A DNA stretch of 34,011 nucleotides from Dehalococcoidia bacterium (lineage in GTDB: Bacteria > Chloroflexota > Dehalococcoidia > GIF9 > UBA5629): the NCBI GenBank assembly GCA_028716085.1, contig JAQUQM010000011.1:1-34011 (forward strand), read 5' to 3'. A program made the translations under genes and the position numbers. Position 1 is the stretch's first letter. Each line of letters begins with the position of its first letter. The notes under the pieces were generated by a model, which was not told where the DNA came from, did not search any database, and saw nothing but the letters and a program-made list of their open reading frames with translations. This document shows, in pieces, positions 12,580 through 30,178 of the stretch.

Positions 12580-12583
12580 AATA

Positions 12584-12612: not shown

Positions 12613-12624
12613 GAAGGCAAGGAT

Positions 12625-12726: not shown

Positions 12727-13334
12727 TGATTGCCGTTATCAATTATGGATCCGGAAATTTAGGGAGTGTGGCCAACGCCCTAGTGAAGTTAGGGCGCAAG
12801 CCATCGGTAACCAGTTCCATATCTGACGTGCTTAAAGCTGACGCAGTCTTCCTGCCGGGAGTGGGCGCAGCAGGCGATACTATGAAAGGTCTGCAGGCAT
12901 TAGGCATGGATAAAGCTTTGAAAAAACTATTTGAGCTTGGTCGACCTGTGTTTGCCATCTGTGTAGGGTTGCAAGTGCTCTTAACTGCCACTGAAGAAGG
13001 TGGCGAGCATATATGTCTGGATGTTATACCCGGCCGGGTCAGGAAGTTGCCGGGGGGGTTAAAGGTCCCACATATGGGCTGGAACCAGGTACATCAACTC
13101 AAATCTCATCCGGTGTTTAATGGCATACCTGATAACAGCAATTTCTATTTTGTTCATAGCTATTACGTTAATCCTGAGGATAAGTCTACTGTAGCTGCAA
13201 TCACCCAATATGGGATTGAATTATGCAGCATGGTAATCATCGATAATCTTATTGCCACACAGTTCCATCCCGAAAAAAGTGGCGAGCTCGGCCTCAAGAT
13301 GTATTCCAATTTTCTCGATTTAGCTAACTGTTAG
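12726..13334 (+). CDS. hisH: Imidazole glycerol phosphate synthase, glutamine amidotransferase subunit
   Basis: MIAVINYGSGNLGSVANAL; catalytic Cys in FAICVGLQVLL; HPE in ATQFHPEKSGELG; GWNQVH. Confidence 0.95.
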   Translation: MIAVINYGSGNLGSVANALVKLGRKPSVTSSISDVLKADAVFLPGVGAAGDTMKGLQALGMDKALKKLFELGRPVFAICVGLQVLLTATEEGGEHICLDVIPGRVRKLPGGLKVPHMGWNQVHQLKSHPVFNGIPDNSNFYFVHSYYVNPEDKSTVAAITQYGIELCSMVIIDNLIATQFHPEKSGELGLKMYSNFLDLANC

Positions 13335-13342
13335 GGCGCTAA

Positions 13343-13444
13343 ATGGAATGTGCTGAAAATGTTAAGACAGAATATCTCGTATTTTACAGCCTTAAACCTC
13401 TGTCGCAGACTCCGCAACAGGGGCAAGTGCCGGTTGCCTATTAA
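13343..13444 (+). CDS. Candidate 33-aa small ORF between hisH and hisF
   Basis: ATG…TAA, MECAENVKTEYLVFYSLKPLSQTPQQGQVPVAY; AGGG 7 nt upstream. Fills most of the hisH-hisF gap. Confidence 0.2.
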   Translation: MECAENVKTEYLVFYSLKPLSQTPQQGQVPVAY

Positions 13445-13462
13445 AGGAGCAGGAGTTGAACC

Positions 13463-14230
13463 ATGTTGACCAAGCGCATCATACCGTGCCTGGATGTCAC
13501 CGCCGGCCGAGTAGTTAAGGGTACCAGCTTTACCAACCTGCGGGACGCCGGTGATCCTGTAAAACAGGCAGCCTTCTACTACAAACAGGGCGCTGACGAG
13601 CTGGTCTTCCTTGATATCGGTGCAACTCCCGAAGGTAGAGATACGCTTGTTGACATCGTAGAACGTGTGGCGAGACAGGTTTTTATACCTTTTTGTGTGG
13701 GAGGTGGACTTCGCAATATCGAAGATATGAGACGCATGTTACTGGCCGGTGCAGACAAAGTTTCGGTCAATACGGCTGCAGTGCAAAATCCGGAGTTGCT
13801 TAGAGAAGCCTCGGAGATTTTCGGACAGCAGTGCATAGTGCTGGCTGTTGACGCGAGGCGTACGCAGGGGAACGGGCCGGTATATTGGGAGGTCTGCACC
13901 CACGGCGGACGCCAGCCTACCGGAAAAGATGTTCTGCAATGGGTAAGGCAAGCAGTGCAACTGGGTGCGGGTGAAATTCTACTGACCAGCTGGGACTCTG
14001 ACGGCCAGCGTCGGGGATATGATAACGAGCTTAACAGGGCCGTAAGTGAAGCAGTTTCCGTCCCGGTCATCGCCAGCGGTGGTGCAGGTGAACTGGAGCA
14101 TCTGTACGAAGCACTGTCCTTGGGCAAGGCTGATGCTGTGCTCGCTGCCAGCATCTTTCACTACCGTGTCCATTCCATTGCTGAGGTCAAACACTATCTT
14201 GCTAAAAAGGGAATCCCAGTACGTATATAA
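13463..14230 (+). CDS. hisF: Imidazole glycerol phosphate synthase, cyclase subunit
   Basis: [64 protein letters not shown]. Both catalytic Asp motifs present. Confidence 0.96.
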
Positions 14231-14241
14231 GGTGTAATTAT

Positions 14242-14670
14242 ATGAATGGCCAACATGCAAAAATATATCTTTTTTACTGTGCCAACAGCGTGGATTCAAA
14301 GGAGTTGCATCATAGACTGGCTCACAACCATGACAAATTTAAGTCAATACCGCTTCCCTGCTCTGGAAAGATCGATGCCCTGTATCTCATGAAAGCTTTT
14401 GAATCAGGGGCCGACGGAGTAGCCGTTGTGACCTGTAAATATGGAGAATGCAAATATCTCGAAGGCAATCTCCGGGCTACCAAGCGCGTGGGAGCGGTTG
14501 AAGCTTTGCTGGAAGAACTTGGACTCGGAGTCGGTCGAATTATTATTACGCAGATTGGTGATCAAGGAATAGATAAGGTTGCTGAAGAGATTGATACATT
14601 GCGGCAAAAGGTCAAAAGTTTGCCGAGTAAGTTATTTATTGAAGACGAGTCCGAACTGGATAAGGAATGA
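14242..14670 (+). CDS. MvhD-like (FlpD family) iron-sulfur electron-transfer subunit, Cys-reduced variant
   Basis: FYCANSVDS…LPCSGKIDALYLMKAFESGADGVAVVTCKYGECKYLEGNLRATKRV aligns with MvhD motifs and with the second copy at 27199. Confidence 0.8.
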   Translation: MNGQHAKIYLFYCANSVDSKELHHRLAHNHDKFKSIPLPCSGKIDALYLMKAFESGADGVAVVTCKYGECKYLEGNLRATKRVGAVEALLEELGLGVGRIIITQIGDQGIDKVAEEIDTLRQKVKSLPSKLFIEDESELDKE

Positions 14671-14707
14671 ATTTATGTTCCCTACAATTTAATAAGGAAT
14701 TAAGAAA

Positions 14708-15610
14708 ATGAAAGCTGATAGTAAACTGGCTGACCGAATAAAGGAAGGAAAATTTATTATTACCGCTGAATATGCGCCGCGTACCGGCACAGATGCTGCT
14801 GTCATCCGGGAATGCGCTGCAAACCTTACCGACGGCATTACTGCCGTAAACGTGGCTGATAACCACTACGGTATTGCCATGTCGAGCCTTGCCGCATCCG
14901 TTGGTCTGATCAACTCGGGTATTGAACCGGTGTATCAAATCGTAACCAGGGATAGAAATCGCATTGCATTGCAATCGGATTTACTGGGATCGGCATATCT
15001 GGGAATTAAAAATGTCTTATGCCTGTCCGGTTATCATCAGAAACTTACCGGCAACGAGGACTCGTCAAATGTATTTGATATGGACTCTATCCAGCTTGTC
15101 GCTACTGTAAAAAAAATGAATGAAGGCTTTTTACTCAATGGAACTGAAATCAACGGTGAATTTTCTATGCTGATGGGTGCTGTAGCAAACCCGTTTTTAC
15201 AGCCAATAGAGTTGAATCTGCTGCGATTGAAGAAAAAGATAGCGGCCGGCGCGGAGTTTATCCAGACACAGGCCATATTCGATACTGATGCTTTCGCTTC
15301 CTGGCTGGCTGCTGCAAGAGACAAAGGGCTGACTGATATGACCGCCATACTTGCAGGTGTCTTGCCCCTGACAGGCGCGGACAAAGCATTGAGGCTAAAA
15401 GAGCAATTCACGGACATGGTTATCCCCGATGCATTGATTTCCAGACTGAAATCTGCAGGTGACGAAGCCGCTCAGTTGAAAGAGGGTATAGCAATATGTT
15501 CGGAAATCGTGCAGAAAATCAAGAACATCCCCGGTCTACGGGGTATCCATATCATGTCCGGCGGAAATGAGAGATTCGTGCCCCAACTGATATCAGCTGC
15601 AAAGCTATAG
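14708..15610 (+). CDS. metF: Methylenetetrahydrofolate reductase catalytic subunit
   Basis: FIITAEYAPRTGTD (MTHFR N-term), GINAV-like DGITAVNVADN, VYQIVTRDRNRIALQSDLLGSAYLGIKNVLCLSG, KIAAGAEFIQTQAIFD, ILAGVLPL. Confidence 0.92.
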   Translation: MKADSKLADRIKEGKFIITAEYAPRTGTDAAVIRECAANLTDGITAVNVADNHYGIAMSSLAASVGLINSGIEPVYQIVTRDRNRIALQSDLLGSAYLGIKNVLCLSGYHQKLTGNEDSSNVFDMDSIQLVATVKKMNEGFLLNGTEINGEFSMLMGAVANPFLQPIELNLLRLKKKIAAGAEFIQTQAIFDTDAFASWLAAARDKGLTDMTAILAGVLPLTGADKALRLKEQFTDMVIPDALISRLKSAGDEAAQLKEGIAICSEIVQKIKNIPGLRGIHIMSGGNERFVPQLISAAKL

Positions 15611-15622
15611 AGGGAAAAGTCG

Positions 15623-17023
15623 ATGCCAGATAAATATCATATTAAAACCAAGTCGATGCCTGCACGACGGCCAAAGATCGGCAAGGTCGGCATCGTTGAC
15701 TGGCGCGAGGATTGCGCCGGTTGCCGCAACTGCGTCAAAAAGGCCTGCGTATTCGACCGTTACAGGCAGGAGGCGGAATATATCCGCAGTCTGAACGATA
15801 TGGATTCTATCTTTTTCCAGTGTATGGGCTGCTTCTCATGCGTGCAGCAGTGTACCAAGGGACTGCTGGCATTATCGGAGAATCCGGTTTACAGTAGGTT
15901 GGGCAACAGATACTGGACACCGGACATTATCGAGACTACCTGGAACCAGGCAGAGACGGCCAAGATACCTGTATCCGGTGCAGGCTATCGCGGCAGGTTC
16001 ACCGGCCCCGGTTTTGATTCCATGTGGACAGATATGTCGGAGATCGTACGTCCCACCCGTGATGGTATACATGGCCGTGAGTATATCAGTACAGCTGTGG
16101 ATATCGGTAGAAAACCGGCAGTTCTGCATTTCAACTCTTTGAACGTCAACCATTTTCCGCTGATTACTATCCCAATGCCACTGGTTATCGACTTGATGCC
16201 GCAAGGTTACAAACTGCCCAATGTAGTCGGGTTATGCAAATCGCTTGCCGCACAGACCGGCATATTGATGATCGTTGATTACAGGGATCTGGAGCTGTTG
16301 GGCAATGACCTGGATACTAGCCTCCCTAATCTTATTTTCTACATAGATAAAGGAGCACATCTGCCACCACATTCCTTGCTGAAAAGGGTGAGAATGGTGG
16401 AAATTGGTGATGATAATCAGATTGATAAGAGAATCAGCGATATCAAAGCAATTAATCCGGATATCGTAGTAGCCATCCGGGTGGATATGGGATCTGAAGG
16501 AGTTGTCAGAGCTAAAGAGCTGGGTCAGAAAGAAAATGCTGAAGTTATACATCTTGTCGCCGATATAAACGGTGACCAGATTGGAGTTAACCAGCCACGA
16601 TTCATCAAAGATATGGTGAGGGAAGTACACAACTTCCTGGTCAGCAAGGGTATTAGAAATGAGATCACTATAATCGCAGGAGGCGGCATAGCCCTGCCCG
16701 AGCATATGGCCAAGCAGATTATCTGCGGTGCTGACCTGGTAGGTATCAATTTACCGCTGTTAATAGCTCTTGAATGTGTTTTTTGCCAGGAGTGCAATGA
16801 CGGGGTAAATTGCCCGGCCGATGTCAGGAACGTAAAAGAATCATACGGTGTCGGCCGCATGGTCAACTTGATTGCTGCATGGCACGATCAATTAATTGAG
16901 ATGATGGGCGCTATGGGCATCCGTGAGGTCCGCAGGCTGCGCGGCGAGGTCGGACGTGCTTTATTCTTTGAAGAACTTGAGGAGGCTACCTTTGGTAAAC
17001 TCTTTGGTACGAGAAAAAATTAA
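15623..17023 (+). CDS. Glutamate synthase FMN-domain-like protein with N-terminal ferredoxin-type Cys clusters; catalytic motifs appear degenerate
   Basis: DCAGCRNCVKKACVF and CMGCFSCVQQC clusters; FDSMWTDMSEIVRPTRDGIHGREYISTAVDIG; IIAGGGIALPEHMAKQIICGADLVGINLPLLIALECVFCQECNDGVNC. Co-linear with the next CDS. Confidence 0.75.
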   Translation: MPDKYHIKTKSMPARRPKIGKVGIVDWREDCAGCRNCVKKACVFDRYRQEAEYIRSLNDMDSIFFQCMGCFSCVQQCTKGLLALSENPVYSRLGNRYWTPDIIETTWNQAETAKIPVSGAGYRGRFTGPGFDSMWTDMSEIVRPTRDGIHGREYISTAVDIGRKPAVLHFNSLNVNHFPLITIPMPLVIDLMPQGYKLPNVVGLCKSLAAQTGILMIVDYRDLELLGNDLDTSLPNLIFYIDKGAHLPPHSLLKRVRMVEIGDDNQIDKRISDIKAINPDIVVAIRVDMGSEGVVRAKELGQKENAEVIHLVADINGDQIGVNQPRFIKDMVREVHNFLVSKGIRNEITIIAGGGIALPEHMAKQIICGADLVGINLPLLIALECVFCQECNDGVNCPADVRNVKESYGVGRMVNLIAAWHDQLIEMMGAMGIREVRRLRGEVGRALFFEELEEATFGKLFGTRKN

Positions 17024-18572
17024 TAATAGTGATCTGCCAGAGAATACCCGTAAAACACAGGTTGAACAGGCTCGGGTAGCGCGTGAGATTAAACCGGCTC
17101 CACCCCGCTATCGGAATGAGCTGGCTAAATATATCATTAACCGCAGCAATGCCTGCATACACTGTGGAAAATGCGCTGAAGTCTGCCCGCAGGGTGTGCA
17201 TATTCTAAAACCCGGATACAAACTGTTCGCCGCACCGCGTTTGAACGTATGCATCGGCCCCTCATGTCAAAATACAGACCATTATTGTGTTGATCTTTGC
17301 CCGCAGAAAGCGTTGAGAATGGTGGAGAATCCCATGATGAAGGTGCTGGGCGATTATCGCTGGACGCCCGACCTTATTCTATCCACGTGGAAGATGTCGG
17401 AGACAGGATCGGCCCCGCCTGTTGAATTTGGTTATGAACGGGAATTCGGCAATTCCGGTGGCGGTTTTGATCGTATCAAGATCAAATTCCCTGAAAAACC
17501 GCCTATCGAAGTGAAACCTGAAGAAGTAGATACGACACTGGAACTGAACCGCCGCAACGACGGCCGCCCGCAGATCAAGCTAGATGTACCTTGGTATGGC
17601 GGCGGCATGTCCTTTGGCTCGGTCAGCAATGTAACACAACTGTCCAAAGCCCGTGCTGCGGTGGCCTTCAATACTTTTACCTGCACCGGTGAAGGTGGCT
17701 ACATGGAAAGGTTACGCCCGTATGATGACCATACTATCACACAGGTGGCGACAGGATTGTTCGGTGTACGCGAGGAAACAATCCAACGTGTCCGCATTGT
17801 TGAATTTAAATATGCCCAGGGTGCGAAGCCGGGCTTGGGAGGGCATCTTCTGGCTGACAAAGTTACACCGTCGGTAGCTCGCATGCGTGAGACAGTATTG
17901 GGTATATCACTGTTCTCACCGTTCCCATTCCACAGTGTTTACTCGATTGAAGATCACCAGAAACATATGGACTGGATCAAACATATTAACAGGCATGCCC
18001 TGATCTCCGCCAAGGTATCCACACCAACCGATGTAGATATGGTTGCCGTCGGCAGCCACTCAGCCGGTGCGCATATAGTGCACATTGACGGCGGTTATGG
18101 TGGTACCGGTGCAGCGCCTGACATCGCCAAGAAAAATATTGCCATGCCTGTTGAATACGGAATTGTTAAAGTGCATGATTTCCTCACACGCGAGGGAGTG
18201 CGGGATAAGGTTACATTGATAGCCAGCGGTGGATTGCGTAATGCTTACGATATCGCCAAGGCTATCGCACTGGGTGCTGACGGTGTCGTAGTTGGTACCG
18301 CGGAACTGGTTGCGCTCGGATGTATAAGATGTGCCCGCTGTGAAAGTGGACGCGGCTGTCCTCGTGGCATAGCTACAACGGATACCAAATTGCAGGAGCA
18401 GATTACAGTTGAATGGGGTTCACAACGAATCATTAATCTTTACAACGCATGGCGAAATGACCTCGTAGATATCCTTGTTAAGCTTGGTATGCGCAGTATC
18501 AGTGAATTGAGGGGACGCACTGATCTGCTGATGCATATGGATTACACCAATGACGTGGAGCCTACAAAATGA
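16992..18572 (+). CDS. Glutamate synthase large-subunit FMN/Fe-S (GltB2-type) domain protein with N-terminal ferredoxin clusters
   Basis: CIHCGKCAEVCPQG; PWYGGGMSFGSVSN; AQGAKPGLGGHLLADKVTP; HIDGGYGGTGAAP; LIASGGLRNAYDIAKAIALGADGVVVGTAELVALGCIRCARCESGRGCPRGI. TTG start at 16992 preferred over GTG 16923 because GAGGAGG (16979-16985) lies 6 nt upstream of it. Confidence 0.9.
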   Translation: MVNSLVREKINNSDLPENTRKTQVEQARVAREIKPAPPRYRNELAKYIINRSNACIHCGKCAEVCPQGVHILKPGYKLFAAPRLNVCIGPSCQNTDHYCVDLCPQKALRMVENPMMKVLGDYRWTPDLILSTWKMSETGSAPPVEFGYEREFGNSGGGFDRIKIKFPEKPPIEVKPEEVDTTLELNRRNDGRPQIKLDVPWYGGGMSFGSVSNVTQLSKARAAVAFNTFTCTGEGGYMERLRPYDDHTITQVATGLFGVREETIQRVRIVEFKYAQGAKPGLGGHLLADKVTPSVARMRETVLGISLFSPFPFHSVYSIEDHQKHMDWIKHINRHALISAKVSTPTDVDMVAVGSHSAGAHIVHIDGGYGGTGAAPDIAKKNIAMPVEYGIVKVHDFLTREGVRDKVTLIASGGLRNAYDIAKAIALGADGVVVGTAELVALGCIRCARCESGRGCPRGIATTDTKLQEQITVEWGSQRIINLYNAWRNDLVDILVKLGMRSISELRGRTDLLMHMDYTNDVEPTK

Positions 18573-21226
18573 ATGGGGAACTGATAGATAATCTGCATGC
18601 CTCCAGGTACATGTTGAATCAGGAACTTCAGCCTCCGACCTCTGAAAGAAAGCTGGAAGAGGAAGGCGGCTGCGGAGTTGTTGGCTTCTGTTGCAGCGAA
18701 CCTGTAGCTGCCAGACATATTTATGAGCCTTCACGCCAGATGCATAACAGGGGCAACGGAAAAGGCGGTGGCGTAGCTGCGCTCGGCTTCAAACCCGAAC
18801 AGCTGGGTGTCAGTAAAGACGTGCTCGATAATTACTACATACTGCATATCGCTGTCCTGGATTTGAACGTCCTGCAGGCACTGGAAAAGAAATATATATA
18901 TTCAAACTTCGAAGTTAAATCTGCACAGAAGCTGGATACTGTAGAGGATTGGACAAAGATATCAGGGCTGCAAGCCAAACCTCCCGATGTTTTCCGTTAT
19001 TTTGTAAAAACGAAATCGGATACCCTCAATGATTTCGTCAAGAAAAATAATCTTTCCGGACTTCCCCAGGAAGAAGCTGAAGCTGAATTCATCAATCAGA
19101 TCAGCATCAGGTTAAACCAGGAATTTTATGCCTCACTTGGTGAGCAAAAAGCCTTTGTCATGTCCGAAGGCAAAAATATCATGATTTTGAAGGTCGTGGG
19201 TTTTGCAGAGGCGATTATTCAATACTACAAAATCGAAGAGCTTTGTGCACATGTCTGGATAGCCCACCAGCGCTTCCCCACAAAGGGAAGGGTATGGCAC
19301 CCCGGTGGAGCTCATCCTTTTGGAGGTATCAACGCCGCGCTGGTGCACAACGGAGACTTTGCCAACTATCACTCTGTATGCGAGTACCTGGCGGAACGCC
19401 AGATATTTCCACAGTTCCTGACGGATACGGAAGTCTCCATACTGCTGTTCGATTTGCTGGAAAGGACGTATCACTATCCTCTGGAATACATCATTGAAGC
19501 CCTTGCACCTACTTCGGAGCTGGATTTCGACCGACTCCCTCCGGAGAAACAGGCGATTTACAGCTCCATCCAGGCTGCACACATACATGGCTCACCGGAC
19601 GGCCCATGGTTCTTTATCATTGCCAGGTCGCTACCCGATCAGAAAGCTTTCCAGTTAATGGGCATTACGGATACTTCAATGTTGAGGCCGCAGGTCTTTG
19701 CCTTAAGCAACGGCGAAGTGCAGGTTGGCCTGATTGCATCCGAAAAACAAGCTATTGATGCTACCCTGCTCAGCCTTCATAAAGACGACGCCCGCATCTG
19801 TCCGGTTGCTGAACGGTACTGGAATGCAAGGGGAGGAAGTCACACAGACGGCGGGGCTTTTATCTTCGATTTGAAATCCGACGACCACGGCAAGCTAAGG
19901 ATTACATGTACAGACAAATTCGGAACTCACATCCCTATGCCATCGGGCAGCGAGGAATGCAACTTTGCCAAAGAAATAACTGCTGTTAGTGCTGAGTTAG
20001 GTAGTGAACTTAAACCGTTCTTCGAAGATAAAGACGCAGCGGCTATTTTTAAATACGTGAAAAACCACAGTCCGCAATGGACATACGATGAGTTTCAAAT
20101 ATGCTTAAACACCATCGTGAATATGGCTGAGGTTGATCGTTATACAACCACGGTCGTTGATGCCCTGACACTTCTCAACGACAGACAGTACGGTGTGGGT
20201 AACAAAAAGCGCAGTCACATCGTTTATATCATCAGAATGGCGCTAAACAAATTATTCAGCAGCCTTCCCCGTTTGGACTCTGATACTCTGCCAGATAGCA
20301 ATTACAGACTGATAGATTATGCCAGCCGGTTATCTTTAAGGGAACCGCGCAACAGTGAAACAACGCTCGTTATCAATGTCAGCGGTTTCGAACCGGAAGG
20401 CAAGCTTTCCGATGCCACTCTCTTAATGGATGCCTATTTTAAAGGTTGGAAACATTTCATCAGCTATAACTGTATCGGGCAGAGGTTCACAGGTTGCGGA
20501 CTCGGGCCTGAAACTGATGGTGTGACAATCGATATTTATGGCAGCTCCGGCGATTATGTAGCTTCCGGCATCGACGGTATGACGATCACTATCCACGGCA
20601 ATGCCCAGGATCAGGTAGGACAGATAATAAAAAGTGGTAAGCTCGTGGTTCACGGAGATGTCGGGCAGACATTTATGTACGGAGCCAAGGGCGGTGCAGT
20701 CTTTGTCAGGGGTAATGCTGCAGGACGCCCGCTAATCAACTCCGTGGGAAAACCAAAGGTTGTACTCAACGGGACATGCCTGGATTTCCTGGGAGAATCA
20801 TTTATGGCTGGCGATGTCTTCAACGGCGGAGGGTTCGTAATCCTGAACGGTGTTAAATTTGATGACAATGGATATGTCGTATCTCTAAAGGAGCCGTACT
20901 CCGGAAGCAATCTCTTCTCGCTTGCATCAGGGGGTGCCATCTATGTCAGGGACCCCGGACAGCAACTGGTCTGGCAGCAGTTAAACGGTTGCGGATTCCA
21001 CCGCATGACAGATGAAGATTGGGCATTGATGCTGCCGTATCTAGAGGAGAACGAGAGGCTTTTTAATATTAAAGTAGAAGAACTCCTGACGGTAAACGGG
21101 GAAAAAAGGTCGCCTGTTGAAGTTTATCGTAAGGTAGCGCCCGTGAAAATCGCGGCCCTCGGGAAAAAGGCTGAAGAAATCATGGCCACAGAAACAGAGG
21201 AACTGACAGTATCTACAGGAGAATAA
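18569..21226 (+). CDS. Glutamate synthase class-II glutamine amidotransferase fused to GXGXG domain (no FMN domain)
   Basis: GGCGVVGFCC (GATase II nucleophile Cys35 behind a 34-residue propeptide), AHQRFPTKGRVWHPGGAHPFGGINAALVHNGDFANYHS. C-terminal GSSGDYVASGIDGMTITIHGNAQDQVGQIIKSGKLVVHGDVGQTFMYGAKGGAVFVRGNAAGRP (GXGXG repeats). 4-nt overlap with the upstream gene. Confidence 0.9.
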   Translation: MNGELIDNLHASRYMLNQELQPPTSERKLEEEGGCGVVGFCCSEPVAARHIYEPSRQMHNRGNGKGGGVAALGFKPEQLGVSKDVLDNYYILHIAVLDLNVLQALEKKYIYSNFEVKSAQKLDTVEDWTKISGLQAKPPDVFRYFVKTKSDTLNDFVKKNNLSGLPQEEAEAEFINQISIRLNQEFYASLGEQKAFVMSEGKNIMILKVVGFAEAIIQYYKIEELCAHVWIAHQRFPTKGRVWHPGGAHPFGGINAALVHNGDFANYHSVCEYLAERQIFPQFLTDTEVSILLFDLLERTYHYPLEYIIEALAPTSELDFDRLPPEKQAIYSSIQAAHIHGSPDGPWFFIIARSLPDQKAFQLMGITDTSMLRPQVFALSNGEVQVGLIASEKQAIDATLLSLHKDDARICPVAERYWNARGGSHTDGGAFIFDLKSDDHGKLRITCTDKFGTHIPMPSGSEECNFAKEITAVSAELGSELKPFFEDKDAAAIFKYVKNHSPQWTYDEFQICLNTIVNMAEVDRYTTTVVDALTLLNDRQYGVGNKKRSHIVYIIRMALNKLFSSLPRLDSDTLPDSNYRLIDYASRLSLREPRNSETTLVINVSGFEPEGKLSDATLLMDAYFKGWKHFISYNCIGQRFTGCGLGPETDGVTIDIYGSSGDYVASGIDGMTITIHGNAQDQVGQIIKSGKLVVHGDVGQTFMYGAKGGAVFVRGNAAGRPLINSVGKPKVVLNGTCLDFLGESFMAGDVFNGGGFVILNGVKFDDNGYVVSLKEPYSGSNLFSLASGGAIYVRDPGQQLVWQQLNGCGFHRMTDEDWALMLPYLEENERLFNIKVEELLTVNGEKRSPVEVYRKVAPVKIAALGKKAEEIMATETEELTVSTGE

Positions 21227-21247
21227 TCCTTAAGCAGGGTGAACACT

Positions 21248-21808
21248 ATGAAAATAAACGGGACAAGAAAGAGCAATTTGAAGCAGACTGTCGAAGAGCT
21301 TTCCGGCGTCAGGATAGATAGCTGCTTAAAATGTATGAAGTGCACCAGCGGCTGTTCGGTTGCTAAAGAAACCAAGATGCATCCTTCCGAGTTGATCGGT
21401 CTGCTTAAGCTCGGCGCTGGCGATGAAATTCTGAAAAGTGACCTGGTCTGGATGTGTTTATCATGCGAGATCTGCTATGGAAGATGCCCGATGAAGATTA
21501 ATACCGCCTCTCTGATTGATGCCCTGAGGAAGCTGGCTGTGGAGCGTGGAACAACTACCCGGAAAGGTAATGCCCCTCTATTTAATAAAGCGTTCCTGGG
21601 TACGGTAAAACAATACGGCAGGTCATATGACTTACAGATGATCATGCACTACAAATTTGGTTCGGGATCATTGATGCAGGATACAGAGAAATTTCCCACT
21701 ATGCTGCGAAAGGGAAAAATGGCTCTGCTTCCACCTTACGGAGCTAAAAAAACAGTTGTGAAGCGGATCTTCGATACATCCCCCGGTGGCAAAGGAAAAA
21801 TAAAATGA
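21248..21808 (+). CDS. hdrC: Heterodisulfide reductase subunit C-like 4Fe-4S protein
   Basis: CLKCMKCTSGCSVA and CLSCEICYGRCPMKI; ATG 21248 with an AGGGTG RBS is preferred to GTG 21239. Confidence 0.88.
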   Translation: MKINGTRKSNLKQTVEELSGVRIDSCLKCMKCTSGCSVAKETKMHPSELIGLLKLGAGDEILKSDLVWMCLSCEICYGRCPMKINTASLIDALRKLAVERGTTTRKGNAPLFNKAFLGTVKQYGRSYDLQMIMHYKFGSGSLMQDTEKFPTMLRKGKMALLPPYGAKKTVVKRIFDTSPGGKGKIK

Positions 21809-22668
21809 GATACGCATATTATCCCGGTTGTTCCTCACATTCAACGGCGCGTGATATGCATGAATCAGCGGCAGCTGTTGCAAATAAGCTTGGAATTGAA
21901 CTCGTGGAAATATACGGCTGGTCCTGTTGCGGTGCAACGTCGGCGCACCAAACTGACAGAGTACTTGCGGCAGCGCTTCCTTCATCCAATTTGTTGCTGG
22001 CCAGAGATATGGGGCTCGATACAGTGGTAACCTGTGCAGCCTGTTATAACCGCATGAAAGTTGCCAATCGCGAAGTGAAGGATTCTGCTGAAATACGTTG
22101 CATGGTGGCTGACCGGGTGGGAAAAGAATATGACGGGTCTGTTGCAGTCCGTCATATTATTGAAATACTGCTTGAGGATGTTGGCCTGGATAAGATTAAG
22201 AAAGCATTGAAGAAGTCGCTCAATGGGCTAAAAATCGCCTGCTATTACGGTTGCCTGCTGGTACGTCCCAATGATGTCACCGGCTTCGATGATGCCGAGA
22301 ATCCGACCTCGATGGACAAGCTGGTTAACGCCATGGGCGGCGAGAGCCTGGAATGGCCATATAAAGTCGAGTGTTGCGGAGGTGGATTGAACCTGACCAG
22401 GACAGATGTCGCTGTCAGGCTTTCCGGTTCAATCATTGATATGGCGGCAAGAGCAGGGGCTGATTGCATCGCCGTCGCCTGCCCGATGTGTCAGGCGAGC
22501 CTTGATCTCAGACAGTCCGATATTAAAAAAGAAACGGGTTTAAAAGCCGATATGCCCGTTGTTTATTTAACCCAGTTGCTGGGTCTGTGCCTGGGTATTC
22601 CTCTAAATGAGCTTGGCCTTAACAGGCTGATGGTGAGCCCGGCGAATATTATTAAGCAGATCTGTTGA
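21805..22668 (+). CDS. hdrB: Heterodisulfide reductase subunit B-like protein (CCG domains)
   Basis: YYPGCSSHSTARDMHESAAAV; GWSCCGATSAH; YYGCLLVRP; ECCGGGLNLTR; CPMCQASLDLRQ. ATGA-type overlap with hdrC. Confidence 0.93.
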   Translation: MRYAYYPGCSSHSTARDMHESAAAVANKLGIELVEIYGWSCCGATSAHQTDRVLAAALPSSNLLLARDMGLDTVVTCAACYNRMKVANREVKDSAEIRCMVADRVGKEYDGSVAVRHIIEILLEDVGLDKIKKALKKSLNGLKIACYYGCLLVRPNDVTGFDDAENPTSMDKLVNAMGGESLEWPYKVECCGGGLNLTRTDVAVRLSGSIIDMAARAGADCIAVACPMCQASLDLRQSDIKKETGLKADMPVVYLTQLLGLCLGIPLNELGLNRLMVSPANIIKQIC

Positions 22669-22711
22669 TCATTTTGAAAGTGATTGTTAATGATTTTGGA
22701 AGGTATCCAGT

Positions 22712-25700
22712 ATGGAAAAGAGTAATGGAAAAAAAATAGGCGCAGTACTGGTTCAGGGCGGAGGTATTGCCGGCATTCAGGCTGCACTCGACCTTGCCAA
22801 TTCAGGTTTTAAGGTTTACCTGGTGGAACGCTCTGCTGCTATCGGCGGTATGATGTCCCATCTGGATAAGACCTTCCCCACGGGCGATTGTGCCACCTGT
22901 ATCGTCTCCCCCAAGCTTGTGGAATGTGCAAGGAATTTAAATGTGGCAATTCTTACTCTCTCCGAGCTGGTTGATCTCAAGGGCACTCCGGGCAATTTCA
23001 AAGCTATGGTGAAAAGATATCCCCGCTATGTGATAGAAGATAAGTGCACATCGTGCGCGCAGTGCACGGATGTCTGTCCCGTGAATGTACCGAATAAGTT
23101 TGACAGGAATCTGGGCACACGCAAGGCTATAGCCAAGCATTACGCCCAGGCAACACCCAATATTTTCGGTATTCTGAAGAACGGGCATGCTCCATGTAAA
23201 ATCAAGTGCCCCGCCAATATCAATGTTCAGGGCTATATACAGCTGATCAAAAAGAAGGAATACATCAAGGCCGTTAACTTGATTCGAGAGAGAAATCCAT
23301 TATCGGCGATCTGTGGAAGAGCCTGCAACCATCCCTGTGAAGAGGCCTGCACCCGTAATTCCGTGGACTCACCGGTTGCTATCAGGGCCCTGAAAAGGTT
23401 TGCCTCAGATAAGGAAATGGAAATGATCGCTTCCGGACAGTTGATGTTGCCGGACGAGAAGATTCCTGCCGTTGGTGCTAAGAAAGTAGCCGTTATTGGT
23501 GCTGGCCCGTCCGGTCTAACTGCTGCCGCTGACCTGGCAGACCATGGTTATGACGTGACTGTTTACGAAGCCAGCTCTGCAGCAGGAGGCATGCTGCGCT
23601 GGGGTATCCCTGAATATAGATTGCCTAAAAACGTGCTCGACCACGAGGTCGAACTGATCCGTCGCAAAGGCGTTAAATTTAACTACAATTGCCGTATCGG
23701 AAAAGATATCTCACTGGAAAAGCTGCAGCAGGATAATGTAGCTGTATTTATCGGCGTGGGTGTTCAATCGAGTCGTAAGCTGGGCGTGGACGGCGAAAAT
23801 AAAACTGGTACCAATTACGGCATTGAATTCCTGAATAAGGCTGCCGATAAGAGTGATCCTCCTGCAGTTGGTAAGAAAGTGATCGTTATTGGTGGTGGCA
23901 ATGTCGCCGTGGATGTTGCACGCACTGCAATGAGACTGGGCGCAGGCAGTGTTGAGATGGTTTCTTTGGAGCAGAGAGACGAAATGCCCGCCTTGCCCGA
24001 GGAAGTTCAGGCAACCATTGAAGAAGGTATCAAGGTGCTCAATGGCTGGGGCCCGCGCAGGATATTGGGCAACGGTGCGGTCACAGGAATTGAGCTTAAA
24101 AAATGTACCAGCGTATTTGATGTGAATGGAAGGTTCAATCCTGCATATGACGAGGAGAACCGCATGGAACTGCAGGCAGATCAGATAATTATTGCCATCG
24201 GCCAGTCGCTCGATAAAGATTTCGCCGGGCAATCCGGTGTTGAGCTCGAGAGGGGATTGCTCAAAGTAGACCCACTAACACTGGAAACACCAGTGCAAGG
24301 AGTATTCGCCGGTGGTGATAGCGTTTCAGGGCCCGCATCCATCATACAGGCTGTGGCAGCAGGCAAACGTGCTGCCGAGTCAATCGATTTTTATATTAAG
24401 AACGAAGGCATGAACCGGCCTCGTTTCACTGACTCTCTTATACCTATCCCTCCTGAAATGCTGCCGACTACTGCAGACCAACCGAAGAAGCCACGCAATA
24501 TGCCGGAGGAATTACCTCCCGCTCAAAGGGCCGGCAATTTCAAAGAAGTGGAAATGAGTTTGACGGAAGATGCGGCCATGGCCGAATGTGACCGCTGCCT
24601 GAACTGCGCTCTGTGTTCCGAATGTCAGGAGTGCGTTGCAATCTGTGAGCAGCATGCCATAAATCACGCCATGCAGGAAGAGCTTGTAGAGCTGGAAATA
24701 GGCTCGGTAATACTTACATCGGGCTTTGAAGAATTCTCAGCGGAACGCAAGGGTGAATTCGGCTACGGCCGCTATGCCAATGTCGTTACCAGCGTGCAGT
24801 TCGAGCGTATGCTATCGGCATCAGGTCCGTTCGAAGGACACGTGATACGCAGGTCAGATGGCAAGCCCGCCAACCGTATCGCCTGGATACAATGCGTCGG
24901 CTCACGCGACAGTAAATGCGGCAATGATTATTGTTCATCGGTTTGCTGCATGGTATCGACAAAGCAGGCGCTGGTCGCTATGGATCATTCCGCAAATCTG
25001 AAAGCTTCGATATTTTATATGGATATCCGCGCTCATGGAAAAGACTTCGACCAGTATTATGAACGTGCTTTAAACAGCGGGAACGTGAACTATATAAAGA
25101 GTATACCCTCCCGTGTTTTACAGGTTCCGGAGACCAGGGATTTACGCTTGCAGTTCATCGGTGCCAACGGCAGCATAGAAGAACAGGATTTTGATCTTGT
25201 GGTGCTCTCGGTAGGTATGGAAGCAGGTGCCAGTGCCAGGGAAAATGCCCGTCAGCTGAATATCGAGCTTAATGAATGGGGATTCTGCAATACAGACAGG
25301 CTTTCACCCGTTAATACATCACGGGATGGTGTTTTCGTGGCTGGTGCATTCCAGGAGCCCAAGGATATACCGGAAACGGTTACTCAGGCCAGCGCAGCAG
25401 CATCCCTGGCCATGGAAATGCTTTCAAACGCACGTAACTCATTGATAACAAAGAGGGTCTACCCGGATGAACACGATGTTACCGATGAAGATCCCAGGAT
25501 TGGTGTATTTGTCTGCCACTGCGGCAAGAATATCGCGTCTGTAGTGGATGTGGAAAAAGTTGCCCAGGTAGCCTTAGGCTTGCCTAATGTGGTTTTTGCT
25601 ACGCATACAATGTATACATGTGCAGACTCCAGCCTGGATGGCATCAAAGAAATGATCAAGCAGCACAACTTGAACCGCGTGGTCGTTGCTTCCTGTACTC

Positions 25701-27202
25701 CGCGTACTCATGAGCCGATATTCAGGGATACTTTAAGGGAAGCAGGATTGAATCCCTATTTGTTTGAGCTGGCCAACATACGCGATCAATGTTCATGGGT
25801 ACATTCATGCGACCCGGAACATGCTACTGAAAAAGCTATTGAGTTGATGTCCATGTCCGTTGCCCGTGCTAGGCTGTTGAAGCCATTGACCGGCACCTCA
25901 TTCGCGGTAGACCAGAGCGGACTCGTCATAGGTGGTGGAGTAAGTGGTATGACCGCTTCATTATCACTGGCCGAACAGGGCTTTAAAGTTCATCTTATCG
26001 AGAGGGAAAGCAAACTCGGCGGTAATGCCATTGACCTGAAATATACGCTCGAACATGAGGATATACCGCAATTTATAGCCGAGCTCGTAAGAAAAGTGGA
26101 AGAGCACGAAAACATCGAAGTGCATAAATCGACCACGATCGAAAATGTAACCGGATTTATTGGCGCCTTTCGTGTGACAGCTTCAACAGCGGAAACCCAG
26201 AAAGAGATCAACTGCGGCAGCATCATCGTGGCTACCGGCGCCAGCCCCGCTACAGTAAAGGAATACAAACATGGCACATCGGAACGAATCATGACCCAGC
26301 TTGAACTCGAGCGGAAGTTATGCACCGATGACGTTGATTTCAGTGGTGAGAACATAGTTATGATTCAGTGCGTGGGCTCCCGCAATGAAGAAAGATCATA
26401 CTGCAGCCGCCTGTGCTGTTCAATGGCTGTGAAGAATGCATTGAAGATTAAGAAATTGAATCCTGACGCCAATATATATGTCTTATACCGGGATATCCGT
26501 ACTTACGGCTTCAGGGAGAAATACTATAAAGAAGCACGTGAAGCCGGGGTGAACTTCATCCGCTATGAAAAGTCCAATCCGCCCATGTTATCTGAAAATG
26601 GAGAGATGGTTGTGACGTTAAAGAGCCCTGATTTTATAGATCTGATTGAAATCGAAGCTGATAATCTGATCCTCAGCACAGGCGTTGATGCAGTCGGCAA
26701 CGGCAGGCTGGCCGATATGCTCAAAGTGCCGCTCAATGCCGATGGTTTTTTTGTGGAAGCTCATTTAAAGCTGCGCCCTGTTGAATTTGCCACAGAAGGT
26801 ATTTTCCTTTGCGGATTGGCTCATTCACCCAAGATGCTGGACGAAAACATCTCCCAGGCACGCGCAGCCGCTTCACGCGCCGCTACCGTGCTGTCTCGGC
26901 CGACGTTGGAAGTCGGCGCACAGGTTTCCCATGTAGACCAGAACAAATGCATATCCTGTATGACCTGCGTCCACATCTGCCCTTATACTGCGCCAACGGT
27001 TAATGCAGATCGCAAAGCTGAGATAATCAGTGCCAAGTGCATGGGCTGCGGCATCTGCGCGGCGGAATGCCCTGCCAAGGCAATCCAATTGAACCATTTC
27101 GAGGGAGTGATATTTGAAAGGATGTTACAGGAGCTTTTTCAGCGCAGGGAAACTAATGAAAACGAGCCGGTAAAGGTGCCGGAGCAAAGAAGTGTGATAT
27201 GA
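22712..27202 (+). CDS. hdrA: HdrA-like flavoprotein: interrupted N-terminal HdrA copy + GltD/NfnB-like module + second HdrA copy + C-terminal 2x[4Fe-4S]
   Basis: GGGIAGIQAALDLANSG…GDCATCIVSPKL (HdrA); PCKIKCPANINVQGYIQLI…CGRACNHPCEEACTR, VAVIGAGPSGLTAAADLA, VIVIGGGNVAVDVARTAMRLGA (GltD-like FAD and NAD(P)H sites); IGVFVCHCGKNI…VVASCTPRTHEPIFRDTL, GLVIGGGVSGMTASLSLAEQG (second HdrA); CISCMTCVHICP…CMGCGICAAECP. Confidence 0.9.
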   Translation: MEKSNGKKIGAVLVQGGGIAGIQAALDLANSGFKVYLVERSAAIGGMMSHLDKTFPTGDCATCIVSPKLVECARNLNVAILTLSELVDLKGTPGNFKAMVKRYPRYVIEDKCTSCAQCTDVCPVNVPNKFDRNLGTRKAIAKHYAQATPNIFGILKNGHAPCKIKCPANINVQGYIQLIKKKEYIKAVNLIRERNPLSAICGRACNHPCEEACTRNSVDSPVAIRALKRFASDKEMEMIASGQLMLPDEKIPAVGAKKVAVIGAGPSGLTAAADLADHGYDVTVYEASSAAGGMLRWGIPEYRLPKNVLDHEVELIRRKGVKFNYNCRIGKDISLEKLQQDNVAVFIGVGVQSSRKLGVDGENKTGTNYGIEFLNKAADKSDPPAVGKKVIVIGGGNVAVDVARTAMRLGAGSVEMVSLEQRDEMPALPEEVQATIEEGIKVLNGWGPRRILGNGAVTGIELKKCTSVFDVNGRFNPAYDEENRMELQADQIIIAIGQSLDKDFAGQSGVELERGLLKVDPLTLETPVQGVFAGGDSVSGPASIIQAVAAGKRAAESIDFYIKNEGMNRPRFTDSLIPIPPEMLPTTADQPKKPRNMPEELPPAQRAGNFKEVEMSLTEDAAMAECDRCLNCALCSECQECVAICEQHAINHAMQEELVELEIGSVILTSGFEEFSAERKGEFGYGRYANVVTSVQFERMLSASGPFEGHVIRRSDGKPANRIAWIQCVGSRDSKCGNDYCSSVCCMVSTKQALVAMDHSANLKASIFYMDIRAHGKDFDQYYERALNSGNVNYIKSIPSRVLQVPETRDLRLQFIGANGSIEEQDFDLVVLSVGMEAGASARENARQLNIELNEWGFCNTDRLSPVNTSRDGVFVAGAFQEPKDIPETVTQASAAASLAMEMLSNARNSLITKRVYPDEHDVTDEDPRIGVFVCHCGKNIASVVDVEKVAQVALGLPNVVFATHTMYTCADSSLDGIKEMIKQHNLNRVVVASCTPRTHEPIFRDTLREAGLNPYLFELANIRDQCSWVHSCDPEHATEKAIELMSMSVARARLLKPLTGTSFAVDQSGLVIGGGVSGMTASLSLAEQGFKVHLIERESKLGGNAIDLKYTLEHEDIPQFIAELVRKVEEHENIEVHKSTTIENVTGFIGAFRVTASTAETQKEINCGSIIVATGASPATVKEYKHGTSERIMTQLELERKLCTDDVDFSGENIVMIQCVGSRNEERSYCSRLCCSMAVKNALKIKKLNPDANIYVLYRDIRTYGFREKYYKEAREAGVNFIRYEKSNPPMLSENGEMVVTLKSPDFIDLIEIEADNLILSTGVDAVGNGRLADMLKVPLNADGFFVEAHLKLRPVEFATEGIFLCGLAHSPKMLDENISQARAAASRAATVLSRPTLEVGAQVSHVDQNKCISCMTCVHICPYTAPTVNADRKAEIISAKCMGCGICAAECPAKAIQLNHFEGVIFERMLQELFQRRETNENEPVKVPEQRSVI

Positions 27203-27648
27203 GTTCAGCTAAAAAGGAGACGACCATAGTAGCTTTCTGCTGCATCTACTGCGCTTATGCAGCCGCCGATCTGGCCGGCTCTATGCGATTGCAGTATCCT
27301 TCCAACATTCGGATACTGAGGACACCATGTACGGGCAGGCTGGAAGTAGAATACTTCATGAAGGCATTTGAAGACGGCGCAGATGGCGTGATAGTGGCAG
27401 GATGCGAGGAAGGCAGTTGCCATTTTAAAGAGGGCAATCTTGTAGCTAAACGGCGTGTAAATTACGCGAAAAAATTACTGGCGGAGGCCGGGCTGGAAAG
27501 CGATAGACTAAGGATGGTGAATGTCAGCGCTGCCAGCGCACGCAAACTGGTTGATTATTTAAAAGAGATGGCCGCCACAATTGAAAAACTTGGGCCAAGT
27601 CCATTGCACACGGTCAAACAATTAGCCCGACAGGAGAGTAAGTCATGA
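27199..27648 (+). CDS. mvhD: MvhD-like (FlpD family) [2Fe-2S] electron-transfer subunit
   Basis: FCCIYCAYAAADLAGSMRLQYPSNIRILRTPCTGRLEVEYFMKAFEDGADGVIVAGCEEGSCHFKEGN; 4-nt overlap with hdrA. Confidence 0.92.
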   Translation: MSSAKKETTIVAFCCIYCAYAAADLAGSMRLQYPSNIRILRTPCTGRLEVEYFMKAFEDGADGVIVAGCEEGSCHFKEGNLVAKRRVNYAKKLLAEAGLESDRLRMVNVSAASARKLVDYLKEMAATIEKLGPSPLHTVKQLARQESKS

Positions 27649-28313
27649 TTGTAGCAGAAAGAAAAACCATTCCTGAACTGATAGATATTTTGCAGGGGCA
27701 CAAAAATGTCCTTGTGCTCGGTTGTGGAACGTGTGTCACGGTTTGCCTGGCAGGCGGTGAACGTGAAGTAAGTATCATTGCATCGGCACTGCGCATAGCT
27801 TCACGTACACAGAACCTGGACTTCAAGGTCAGCGAGTTGACGATTGAAAGGCAGTGCGACAATATCTTCATTGAACAGGCGGCCGAAGCCATAGATAAGA
27901 GCGATGCCGTACTATCGCTGGGCTGTGGCGCCGGTGTGCAGGCTATTGCCGAGCGTTACCCCCGCAAGCCTGTATATGCCGGGTTAAATACCAAGTTCCT
28001 GGGTATCCTGGAGGAAAGGGGCATCTGGACGGAGAAGTGTGCTGCCTGCGGCGCCTGCGTGTTACATGAATATGGTGGTATCTGCCCGGTGACACGCTGT
28101 GCAAAGCATATGTTGAATGGTCCGTGCGGAGGATCAAAGGAAGACAGGTGTGAAGTGAATCCTGATCGTCCTTGTGCCTGGCAACTAATATATCAACGTC
28201 TGAAGTCTATCGGACAATTGCAGAAACTGGAGCAGGTTACGATGCCGAAAAATTGGGGGCCGAGTCTTAGTGGAGGACCTCGCACTATTATACGGGATGA
28301 TCACAGGATTTGA
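27645..28313 (+). CDS. metV: Methylenetetrahydrofolate reductase-associated Zn/Fe-S subunit (MetV, MTHFR_C-type)
   Basis: VLVLGCGTCVTVCLAGGEREV; LSLGCGAGVQAI; KCAACGACVLHEYGGICPVTRCAKHMLNGPCGGSKEDRCEVNPDRPCAW. Confidence 0.88.
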   Translation: MIVAERKTIPELIDILQGHKNVLVLGCGTCVTVCLAGGEREVSIIASALRIASRTQNLDFKVSELTIERQCDNIFIEQAAEAIDKSDAVLSLGCGAGVQAIAERYPRKPVYAGLNTKFLGILEERGIWTEKCAACGACVLHEYGGICPVTRCAKHMLNGPCGGSKEDRCEVNPDRPCAWQLIYQRLKSIGQLQKLEQVTMPKNWGPSLSGGPRTIIRDDHRI

Positions 28314-28425
28314 TTCTGCAAAATTATATGTGAATACGATGGAAATTATTATTTGTAGATAAAGAATTACTAAATGTACTGAGCTAGTGCTTATTAAGTG
28401 AGATGAGCTCTCAGCGGAGGTTCAT

Positions 28426-29427
28426 ATGATTGGACAGGAAACACGCGATGTAGAAAGAAAGATTACGGCGATTCTCAGGATACTCAGCGAGTCCAGGCAA
28501 CCGGTGGGTGGCCGGAGCATATCGCTCATGCTGGAGGAACAGGGAATCCACCTTGGCGAGCGGGCTGTCCGCTACCACCTCAAGATCATGGATGAACGGG
28601 GATTAACACGCTTGGCAGGGCCCAAAGACGGCCGCACTATCACGCTTGCAGGCCAGGACGAACTGCGCAATTCTCTGGTAACTGATAAACTCGGCTTCGT
28701 CAGCACTAGAATCGAGTGCCTGGCCTACCAGACCAATTTCGGCCTGCGCTCGGCTAACGGCAAAGTACCTGTAGATATCACCCTGTTTAACCGCGATGAC
28801 TTAATCCGTGCATTAAAAATCATGTCAGACGTATTCGCGGCCGGCTTTTGTTCCTCTGAACTGGTCGCTCTGGGTGGAGAAGGCGCCAGCCTGGGACAGA
28901 CTATAATTCCATCGGGTAAAGTGGGCTTCGCCACAGTATGCAGCGTAGCTATCAACGGCTGTCTGCTTAAAGCCGGCATTCCGGCACACGCACGCTTCGG
29001 TGGTCTCATGCAGGTGAGGAACAGGCAGCCTTACCGTTTTGTGGATCTCATTGAGTTCTCCGGCTCGACCATTGATCCTTCCAATATTTTTATCACCGGA
29101 CGTATGACAGAGGTTAAAAATGCCGCCTCCGTCGGAGAGGGGAAGGTACTGGCTGGCTACCAGGAGATACCTATGCTATCCCTGGCCAGAGCCGAGGAAC
29201 TGTTGCACAGGCTGAATAATCATGGACTAATGTGCCCCGCCATGCTCGCGCGTTCCGGAGAGGCGGTTTGCGAGATACCCCGTAATCCGGATAAGGTAGG
29301 ACTGATTACTCTCAGCGGCCTTAATCCGGCGGCTGCTGCTGCAGAAGCCGGTATCAAGATTTCAAACATGGCTATGTGCGGCATGATGGAAATAACAAAA
29401 CTGCGCCCGTTCCGGGAACTTCTCTGA
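28426..29427 (+). CDS. nrpR: NrpR-type transcriptional regulator (winged HTH + single NrpR regulatory domain)
   Basis: N-terminal wHTH (ILRILSESRQPVGGRSISLMLEEQGIHLGERAVRYHLKIMDERGLT); NrpR/DUF128 domain (…ELVALGGEGASLGQTIIPSGKVGFATVCSVAINGCLLKAGIPAHARFGGLMQV…LINPAAAAAEAGI-like C-term). RBS GGAGG upstream. Confidence 0.8.
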   Translation: MIGQETRDVERKITAILRILSESRQPVGGRSISLMLEEQGIHLGERAVRYHLKIMDERGLTRLAGPKDGRTITLAGQDELRNSLVTDKLGFVSTRIECLAYQTNFGLRSANGKVPVDITLFNRDDLIRALKIMSDVFAAGFCSSELVALGGEGASLGQTIIPSGKVGFATVCSVAINGCLLKAGIPAHARFGGLMQVRNRQPYRFVDLIEFSGSTIDPSNIFITGRMTEVKNAASVGEGKVLAGYQEIPMLSLARAEELLHRLNNHGLMCPAMLARSGEAVCEIPRNPDKVGLITLSGLNPAAAAAEAGIKISNMAMCGMMEITKLRPFRELL

Positions 29428-29432
29428 CGGAT

Positions 29433-30128
29433 ATGTATTCGATGTATAACATCCTTATTGTAACCAACGAAATGGACCGCATGCGCGACGTGATAACCGG
29501 CTTAAGCCGACAGGGTTATTCCTGTACCGCCTGCGCCTATGCCGACGACGTTATTACGCAGGATGTGCGCCAGTACTTTAACCTGGTGCTTATAGATATA
29601 TCATCGGTATCGCAGCACGGCGATTCTGCCTGGCGCTGGTTCAGACGTATTAAACTGCGCCGGCCGTTGCCCATCATCGCCCTGGTCTCAACTTCTACCT
29701 TGCAGGTAATAATGGCAGAAACCGGAATCGACGATTTCATTCTTAAGCCCTGGAACATGGATGAGCTCAGTTCGCGCATAACACGGCTGCTTAACCGTGC
29801 TGATACAACTGAAGAAGGCAAGATAATCAAAGCCAGCGACCTGATAATTGACCCGGTTAAATGTGAGGTACACCTGGGAGGCAGGCTGTTGGTGCTCACC
29901 TTTAAAGAATATGAGATGTTAAAATTGCTGGCAACCAACCCAGGCCGGGTCTTTACCCGTGAGGCGCTCCTGAACGAGGTCTGGGGCTATGATTATTTCG
30001 GCGGTGACCGCACCGTGGACGTACATATCCGCAGACTTCGCAGTAAGATCGAGGATTCCGTACATTCCTTTATTGAAACAGTAAGGAACATAGGCTACAA
30101 GTTTAAGGATATGCCCCCTGCCGCTTAA
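29433..30128 (+). CDS. OmpR-family orphan response regulator, GlnR-like
   Basis: Receiver-like NILIVTNEMDRM…FNLVLIDIS…GIDDFILKPW; trans_reg_C LTFKEYEMLKLLATNPGRVFTREALLNEVWGYDYFGGDRTVDVHIRRLRSKIEDSVHSFIETVRNIGYKF. ATG 29433 or 29442 is preferred to the in-frame GTG 29376 that overlaps nrpR. Confidence 0.88.
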   Translation: MYSMYNILIVTNEMDRMRDVITGLSRQGYSCTACAYADDVITQDVRQYFNLVLIDISSVSQHGDSAWRWFRRIKLRRPLPIIALVSTSTLQVIMAETGIDDFILKPWNMDELSSRITRLLNRADTTEEGKIIKASDLIIDPVKCEVHLGGRLLVLTFKEYEMLKLLATNPGRVFTREALLNEVWGYDYFGGDRTVDVHIRRLRSKIEDSVHSFIETVRNIGYKFKDMPPAA

Positions 30129-30134
30129 CCTCCT

Positions 30135-30172: not shown

Positions 30173-30178
30173 AGGCCT

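Follow-up and report, generated by a model that had tools for sequence, protein, structure and literature searches.

What does a complete glutamate synthase do inside an operon for folate and heterodisulfide reductase-type proteins? The question is raised by the 34,011-nucleotide stretch analyzed here (the window), which is contig JAQUQM010000011.1 (G000:C11) of the 2.46-Mb draft genome of a Dehalococcoidia bacterium. At 14242-28313 it carries ten genes in the order MvhD1-MetF-GltB2-like-GltB2-GltB1/3-HdrC-HdrB-HdrA (with a GltD insert)-MvhD2-MetV. The answer that we favor, with a probability of roughly 0.55, is a glutamate synthase that is regulated by nitrogen, fed by NAD(P)H and equipped with a captured acetogen-type MetV-HdrABC-MvhD electron module, in which MetF was repurposed. 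The basis for this is read in the sequence and comprises the gene content and order, intact motifs, the loss of an Asp from MetF, a second canonical MetF, the nitrogen context and a palindrome. From these we infer that the proteins may form a physical complex, as well as the direction and path of its electrons, its cofactor preference and its control by NrpR binding.

In many cells, ammonia enters metabolism mainly through glutamate synthase. The known electron sources of this enzyme are NADPH, NADH and ferredoxin, and F420 has been proposed. GltB2 of the window combines a ferredoxin domain with an intact flavin mononucleotide (FMN)/Fe-S glutamate synthase domain (307 bits to PF01645). Aligned along the synthase domain of A. 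brasilense GltS, it keeps QGAKPG, SIED, GGTGA and the cluster cysteines, and the FMN, 2-oxoglutarate and Fe-S motifs are retained. GltB1/3 is an N-terminal nucleophile-type glutamine amidotransferase, with the nucleophile Cys35 after a 34-residue leader and with conserved EGGCGVVGF, NRGNGKGGG, HQRFPT and HNGD motifs, followed by a GXGXG domain (PF01493, 54.7 bits). Among solved structures it matched only formylmethanofuran dehydrogenase C, via the GXGXG repeat. Strong PF01645 matches were confined to the GltB2-like/GltB2 pair in 19 of 19 carriers tested; the others were weak (18 to 47 bits). The fused GltB1/3 shares only about 30% identity with the split archaeal type, and the fused type and split archaeal-type GltB1 never co-occurred (15 versus 53 genomes among 150 relatives, counted by hand from the match list; P about 0.001). 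The intact motifs, the single Glu_synthase locus, the mutual exclusion with the split type and the adjacency of amt, PII, glnA and nrpR indicate that the locus most likely encodes the only glutamate synthase of the genome, a Chloroflexota variant consisting of GltB2-like, GltB2 and GltB1/3. The original prediction, which described a composite MetFV-HdrABC-MvhD locus with a complete glutamate synthase embedded in it, was confirmed by families and motifs. Its term "rearranged" is partly apt; the GltB1-GltB3 fusion and the GltB2-like partner are inherited traits of the Chloroflexota type.

The MetF of the operon has Tyr109 at the site of the catalytic Asp (Asp120 in E. coli), with the equivalents of Glu28 and Gln183 retained. 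Asp120 of E. coli methylenetetrahydrofolate (methylene-THF) reductase (MTHFR) hydrogen-bonds the pterin and has been described as invariant and catalytically essential (PMC9900621). The D120N variant has 0.3% of the wild-type kcat, and its Km is >40-fold higher (PMC11094777). This site holds Tyr (8) or Phe (1) in all nine MetFs available from Hdr-containing operons and Asp in 34 of 34 other aligned MetFs. Columns that are conserved in Hdr-less operons yet lost in all Hdr operons amounted to 23 of 109 in MetF versus 60 of 896 in four pooled partner proteins (MetV, GltB2-like, GltB2 and GltB1/3; P = 6e-6). In the tree, the Hdr-operon MetFs grouped as a single clade (100/100), whose stem measures about 1 change per site, and because of this long stem the position of the window-type MetF relative to that of the Hdr-less operons is uncertain. 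The ratio of nonsynonymous to synonymous substitution rates among close pairs of Hdr-operon MetFs was 0.16 to 0.26, which is purifying selection and indicates that the operon MetF is not a pseudogene. Its predicted structure (mean predicted local distance difference test [pLDDT] score of 90) matched MTHFR structures, indicating that the fold is kept, a match that says nothing on activity. No relative of MetV was found among solved structures.

A separate canonical MetF is encoded elsewhere in the window's genome and in the other near-complete carriers. It was not seen in G028 (82% complete) or in G775, which has a MetVF-type copy. Most carriers also have the acetyl-CoA synthase marker PF03598, indicating that the other, canonical MetF can serve the methyl branch. 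Judged by its residues, the operon MetF has probably lost its competence as a methylene-THF reductase and been repurposed; with the active-site residue lost, it probably serves glutamate synthesis and not folate chemistry. The coupling of C1-folate reduction to glutamate synthesis, as first proposed for this locus, is less likely in view of the Tyr/Phe replacement, the long stem, the separate canonical MetF in most genomes and the nitrogen context.

HdrA (1496 residues) consists of two incomplete HdrA copies in tandem, and the GltD (NAD(P)H:FAD/Fe-S) module, at residues of about 155-570, is lodged in the ferredoxin insertion of the first copy. In the alignment, HdrA 147-288 and 293-510 correspond to residues 13-154 and 635-851, and GltD corresponds to residues 160-565. 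The Cys motifs for the HdrA clusters and the flavin motifs are conserved. The NAD(P) loop reads VSLEQR in place of YRRxR. Throughout the window's tier of operons this loop is SLEQR or CLEQR, whereas YRRxR is found in the aligned NADPH-linked structures and in the HdrA-GltD of MetVF operons without glt genes. The replacement predicts a shift towards NADH.

The GltB2-like protein has an N-terminal two-cluster ferredoxin domain, a degenerate Glu_synthase barrel and a C-terminal CxxCxxCx5C cluster. Its AlphaFold model (pLDDT 77) had A. brasilense GltS as the top Protein Data Bank match with a template modeling score of 0.45, which supports the fold family only. The CxxCxxCx5C motif is present in all MvhD-bearing operons and absent or broken in most of those without MvhD; the exceptions, G303 and G405, are from a clade related to MvhD-bearing operons. 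This co-occurrence suggests that electrons are exchanged between GltB2-like and MvhD. MvhD1 keeps four conserved cysteines and lacks the second Cys of a CxxC that is present in MvhD2.

Counting that of the window, 12 Dehalococcoidia genomes share the ten-gene order, which is disrupted only at contig ends or by frame interruptions. The original prediction had named a lack of conservation in any relative as evidence against it, a condition that did not hold. The window, L034 and L038 have the order complete and without a break, and L041 (G016) keeps it with two frame breaks. Contig ends cut it in eight more genomes (L035, L036, L037, L039, L040 plus L050, L047, L049 and L136). Where relatives of the locus are named, they are Dehalococcoidia/Chloroflexota metagenome-assembled genomes; the carriers are anaerobic Chloroflexota that are uncultured. 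Proteins of the relatives' operons are about 50 to 89% identical to those of the window, indicating that the order is conserved by selection and is not a recent copy. A join by chance or misassembly was ruled out, since independent assemblies, including PLLL01000046.1, share the order. In L041:4103-12668, gltB1/3 and hdrA each lie in two overlapping frames, through either sequencing error or genuine breakage.

The GltB2-like-GltB2-GltB1/3 unit was found in 25 of 393 genomes of the class and 10 of 400 genomes of the phylum, including four from outside the class. It occurs alone with nitrogen genes (e.g., G133, G249 and G242), downstream of MvhD with one fusion protein that combines GltB2-like and GltB2 (G207, G144 and G286) and, without Hdr genes, as mvhD-metV-metF-gltB2like-gltB2-gltB1/3 (G091, G092, G109, G127, G190, G330 and G365; fused in G109). 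Fused GltB2-like/GltB2 proteins of about 940 to 1000 residues are encoded at L043:6390-9371, L046:6507-9512, L140:7002-9983, L145:5859-8858 and L149:9255-12080, and the occurrence of such fusions in several families supports a fixed partnership. MetV-MetF-HdrC-HdrA(GltD)-MvhD operons without gltB occur in G034-type relatives, and G109 has a second locus with HdrCBA(GltD), MetV and MetF. The glutamate synthase unit and the MetVF-Hdr(GltD) block thus each occur apart, and the window's tier joins both. By gene content, the GltB2-like-GltB2-GltB1/3 unit is a portable core to which the MetFV/Hdr parts are additions, and the additions are stepwise, from the unit alone to the unit with MvhD, then with MvhD-MetV-MetF and then with HdrCBA(GltD)-MvhD2. 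The alternative offered originally, a folate reductase that co-opted parts of glutamate synthase, has the direction wrong in this respect.

Two further arrangements were observed among the relatives. L167:8265-18767, L174, L175 and L176, from order-level relatives, have HdrA-HdrA-MvhD-MetV-MetF-HdrC-HdrA(GltD)-MvhD and no gltB; the Chloroflexota literature examined was not found to describe a tandem HdrA that has a GltD insert and is linked to MetVF, as in these operons. At L044:4117-4890 and L154:5912-6670, in genomes with fused GltB1/3, a stand-alone GXGXG protein that shares about 30% identity with the GltB3 part is encoded beside nrpR/amt.

The ten closely packed open reading frames (ORFs) all lie where the original prediction had placed them, with the gaps and overlaps it gave, and their families were confirmed by profile search. 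The spacings from mvhD1 to metV are 37, 12, -32, -4, 12, -4, 43, -4 and -4 nt. The overlap of 32 nt between GltB2-like and GltB2 is valid if GltB2 starts at TTG 16992, immediately upstream of which lies the ribosome-binding sequence GAGGAGG. The features, all on the plus strand, are as follows.

12551-12579, plus: promoter-like site TTGACA-17-TAAAGT, upstream of hisH
12584-12612, plus: palindrome ATACGGCATATGGTTGCCATATACCGTAT, containing GGCAN6TGCC, directly downstream of the promoter-like site; candidate NrpR-type operator
12726-13334, plus: hisH-like class-I glutamine amidotransferase, probably in the same transcription unit
13463-14230, plus: hisF, ending 11 nt upstream of mvhD1
14242-14670, plus: MvhD1 (FlpD), FlpD/MvhD family match
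14708-15610, plus: MetF-like protein of the MetVF type, MTHFR family match
15623-17023, plus: GltB2-like paralogue, partial Glu_synthase match
16992-18572, plus: GltB2, ORF open from GTG 16923, likely start TTG 16992
18569-21226, plus: GltB1/GltB3 fusion, GXGXG and amidotransferase (GATase) matches
21239-21808, plus: HdrC (4Fe-4S), family match
21805-22668, plus: HdrB with two CCG cysteine-rich motifs, family match
22712-27202, plus: tandem HdrA with GltD module, HdrA and inserted Fer4_20/Pyr_redox_2 (GltD-type) matches
27199-27648, plus: MvhD2 (FlpD), family match, full Cys set
27645-28313, plus: MetV (DUF5981, MTHFR C-terminal/MetV family), family match
28426-29427, plus: NrpR-type nitrogen repressor, downstream of metV
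29376-33272, plus: response regulator, Amt, PII and GlnA, nitrogen-assimilation neighbors

The transcription unit is probably longer than the ten genes and starts upstream of hisH, because hisF ends 11 nt before mvhD1 and the promoter-like site and the palindrome lie upstream of hisH. No forward-strand terminator-like site was found in window positions 12300-31000. hisH and hisF also flank related glt operons in relatives. In L051:9731-13219, L052:8061-12297, L053:7483-11752 and L155:1282-5507 the order is gltB1-hisF-gltB2-gltB3, with hisF inside a split glutamate synthase operon, indicating that histidine-pathway amidotransferase genes accompany both types of glutamate synthase. On the minus strand, window positions 4918-8082 encode a hybrid sensor kinase in which five or more PAS domains are combined with a HATPase and a receiver domain; the gene adjoins tRNA-His.

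With nrpR, amt, PII, glnA and the response regulator gene downstream, the operon is apparently under nitrogen control via NrpR, with a putative operator. Comparison of the upstream regions of related operons yielded a palindrome, GGYAN6TRCC (best form CGGTAAN4TTACCG), that precedes 13 of 29 operon starts at a distance of up to 250 nt, versus 0.7 expected, and occurs in all tiers. It has the layout of the NrpR operator, i.e., two 4-nt arms and a 6-nt spacer. Matches in the window to the published operator, GGAAN6TTCC (PMC2723118), were scattered, with none at the operon start, and a degenerate palindrome pattern with two mismatches was too loose for use.

In the favored reading, NAD(P)H, probably NADH, would be oxidized at the GltD domain within HdrA. 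The electrons would pass through the GltD/HdrA Fe-S clusters and the HdrA flavins to MvhD and/or HdrBC, then to the ferredoxin domains of GltB2-like and GltB2 and finally to the FMN of GltB2. There, 2-oxoglutarate and ammonia channeled from the GltB1 amidotransferase would form glutamate. MetF would be retained with MetV as a structural or electron-relay part of the bridge, and expression would track nitrogen status through NrpR. In Sporomusa, pull-downs showed interactions among MetF, MetV, MvhD, HdrA and HdrB (PMC9430772), which makes a docking role for MetF reasonable. Several points weigh against this reading. Mere co-transcription of separate enzymes would be expected to give the same gene order. 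Besides the Glu28 and Gln183 equivalents, the operon MetF keeps RDRNRI and may retain some residual folate chemistry, and MetV is very conserved (80 to 86%). The palindrome differs in its letters from the published operator and is missing from five family members in which nrpR comes first. Some of the loci counted had also served to derive the pattern, which somewhat inflates its enrichment. Glutamate dehydrogenase is present in the window's genome, so that glutamate synthase is not the sole route to glutamate.

The same parts could work in other ways. Glutamate formation from NADH is exergonic enough for bifurcation to ferredoxin to be thinkable. NADH electrons would then be split at HdrA, the strongly exergonic formation of glutamate at GltB2 would drive ferredoxin reduction and the retired MetF would sit in the bridge; we consider such an electron-bifurcating glutamate synthase unlikely. 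We are similarly doubtful that the operon encodes separate enzymes that share only nitrogen-controlled transcription, i.e., a glutamate synthase that receives electrons from ferredoxin via the ferredoxin domains it carries, and a MetFV-HdrABC-MvhD enzyme that has a different, unrelated function. The occurrence of the glutamate synthase unit without Met/Hdr genes in other Chloroflexota and of the glt-less MetVF-HdrC-HdrA(GltD)-MvhD operon in G034-type relatives is consistent with separate enzymes, but the interleaved mvhD-metF-glt-hdr-mvhD-metV order kept in 12 genomes, the GltB2-like cluster that accompanies MvhD, the degenerate operon MetF and a HdrA-GltD cofactor loop unlike that of the glt-less homologues argue against them.

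A single assembly in which active MetFV reduces methylene-THF (or oxidizes methyl-THF) and exchanges electrons with glutamate synthesis via Hdr/MvhD is quite unlikely for the window. MetF and MetV are retained under purifying selection, and in the Hdr-less mvhD-metV-metF-glt tier, where MetF keeps the Asp, such coupling is plausible; in G091, from that tier, the only other MTHFR match is weak and lies in a 686-amino-acid fusion ORF. In the window's tier, however, the Asp is replaced in 9 of 9 MetFs, most carriers have an ordinary MetF elsewhere and the genes stand in a nitrogen regulon. It is very improbable that the GltB unit is a related amidotransferase/oxidoreductase other than glutamate synthase, or works in reverse: its distance from the split archaeal type and the degenerate GltB2-like protein would fit, but the catalytic motifs are intact, no other Glu_synthase locus or split type is present and amt-PII-glnA-nrpR are adjacent.

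All six subunit types of Moorella thermoacetica MetFV-HdrABC-MvhD and Sporomusa ovata HdrCBA-MvhD-MetVF are found in one operon here, and the tandem HdrA is of the kind described for Moorella (PMC9012536). The window differs from both in the GltD within HdrA, the second MvhD, the glt genes between metF and metV, the Asp-less MetF and the nitrogen-regulon context. Methylene-THF reductase activity of a stable or transient complex has been reported only for Moorella and Sporomusa. With the split archaeal GltB1/GltB2/GltB3 and the bacterial alpha-beta GltS, the window shares the amidotransferase, FMN/Fe-S synthase and GXGXG functions, the N-terminal ferredoxin domain of GltB2 and a GltD-type NAD(P)H oxidase. 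It differs from them in the GltB1-GltB3 fusion, the extra GltB2-like protein, four Cys at the GltB2 cluster and GltD inside HdrA instead of in a separate beta subunit. Type III HdrA (HdrA9/10/11) of the anaerobic methanotrophic archaea (ANME) of group ANME-1 and of Bathyarchaeota likewise has GltD in the HdrA ferredoxin insertion, and the A9 class has been reported to carry a second, C-terminal thioredoxin-reductase domain (PMC12054007, PMC9012536). The HdrA of the window is in contrast bacterial, tied to MetVF/MvhD and glutamate synthase, and has the SLEQR loop. Putative F420-dependent glutamate synthases of ANME (FrhB10-GltS clusters; PMC9012536) also stand beside a nonstandard electron-input subunit, which is FrhB/F420 there versus HdrABC-MvhD-MetV-GltD in the window. 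Sewell et al. (2017) reported hdrABC-mvhD-metVF in marine Chloroflexi, and the portions of that paper concerned with glutamate synthase/GltD note the similarity to NfnA and draw no link to gltB (PMC5736913). Neither the joining of a glutamate synthase to HdrABC/MetFV nor a bifurcating glutamate synthase was found described in the open-access literature searched, with subscription papers outside its scope. In the window, a whole Hdr module of the type that CO2-fixing acetogens have appears to be joined to glutamate synthase.

For the Chloroflexota, metF/metV/hdr genes are unsafe as evidence of a Wood-Ljungdahl methyl branch, as the window MetF bears that name without the catalytic residue. The ladder of relatives, from glutamate synthase alone through the additions of MvhD, MetVF and Hdr, indicates how such a machine could be assembled stepwise. 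If the parts form one enzyme, Hdr-type electron transfer would extend from energy metabolism to nitrogen assimilation, and bifurcating glutamate synthesis would be directly testable. If the bifurcating reading were true, an energy-limited anaerobe would regain energy from ammonia assimilation.

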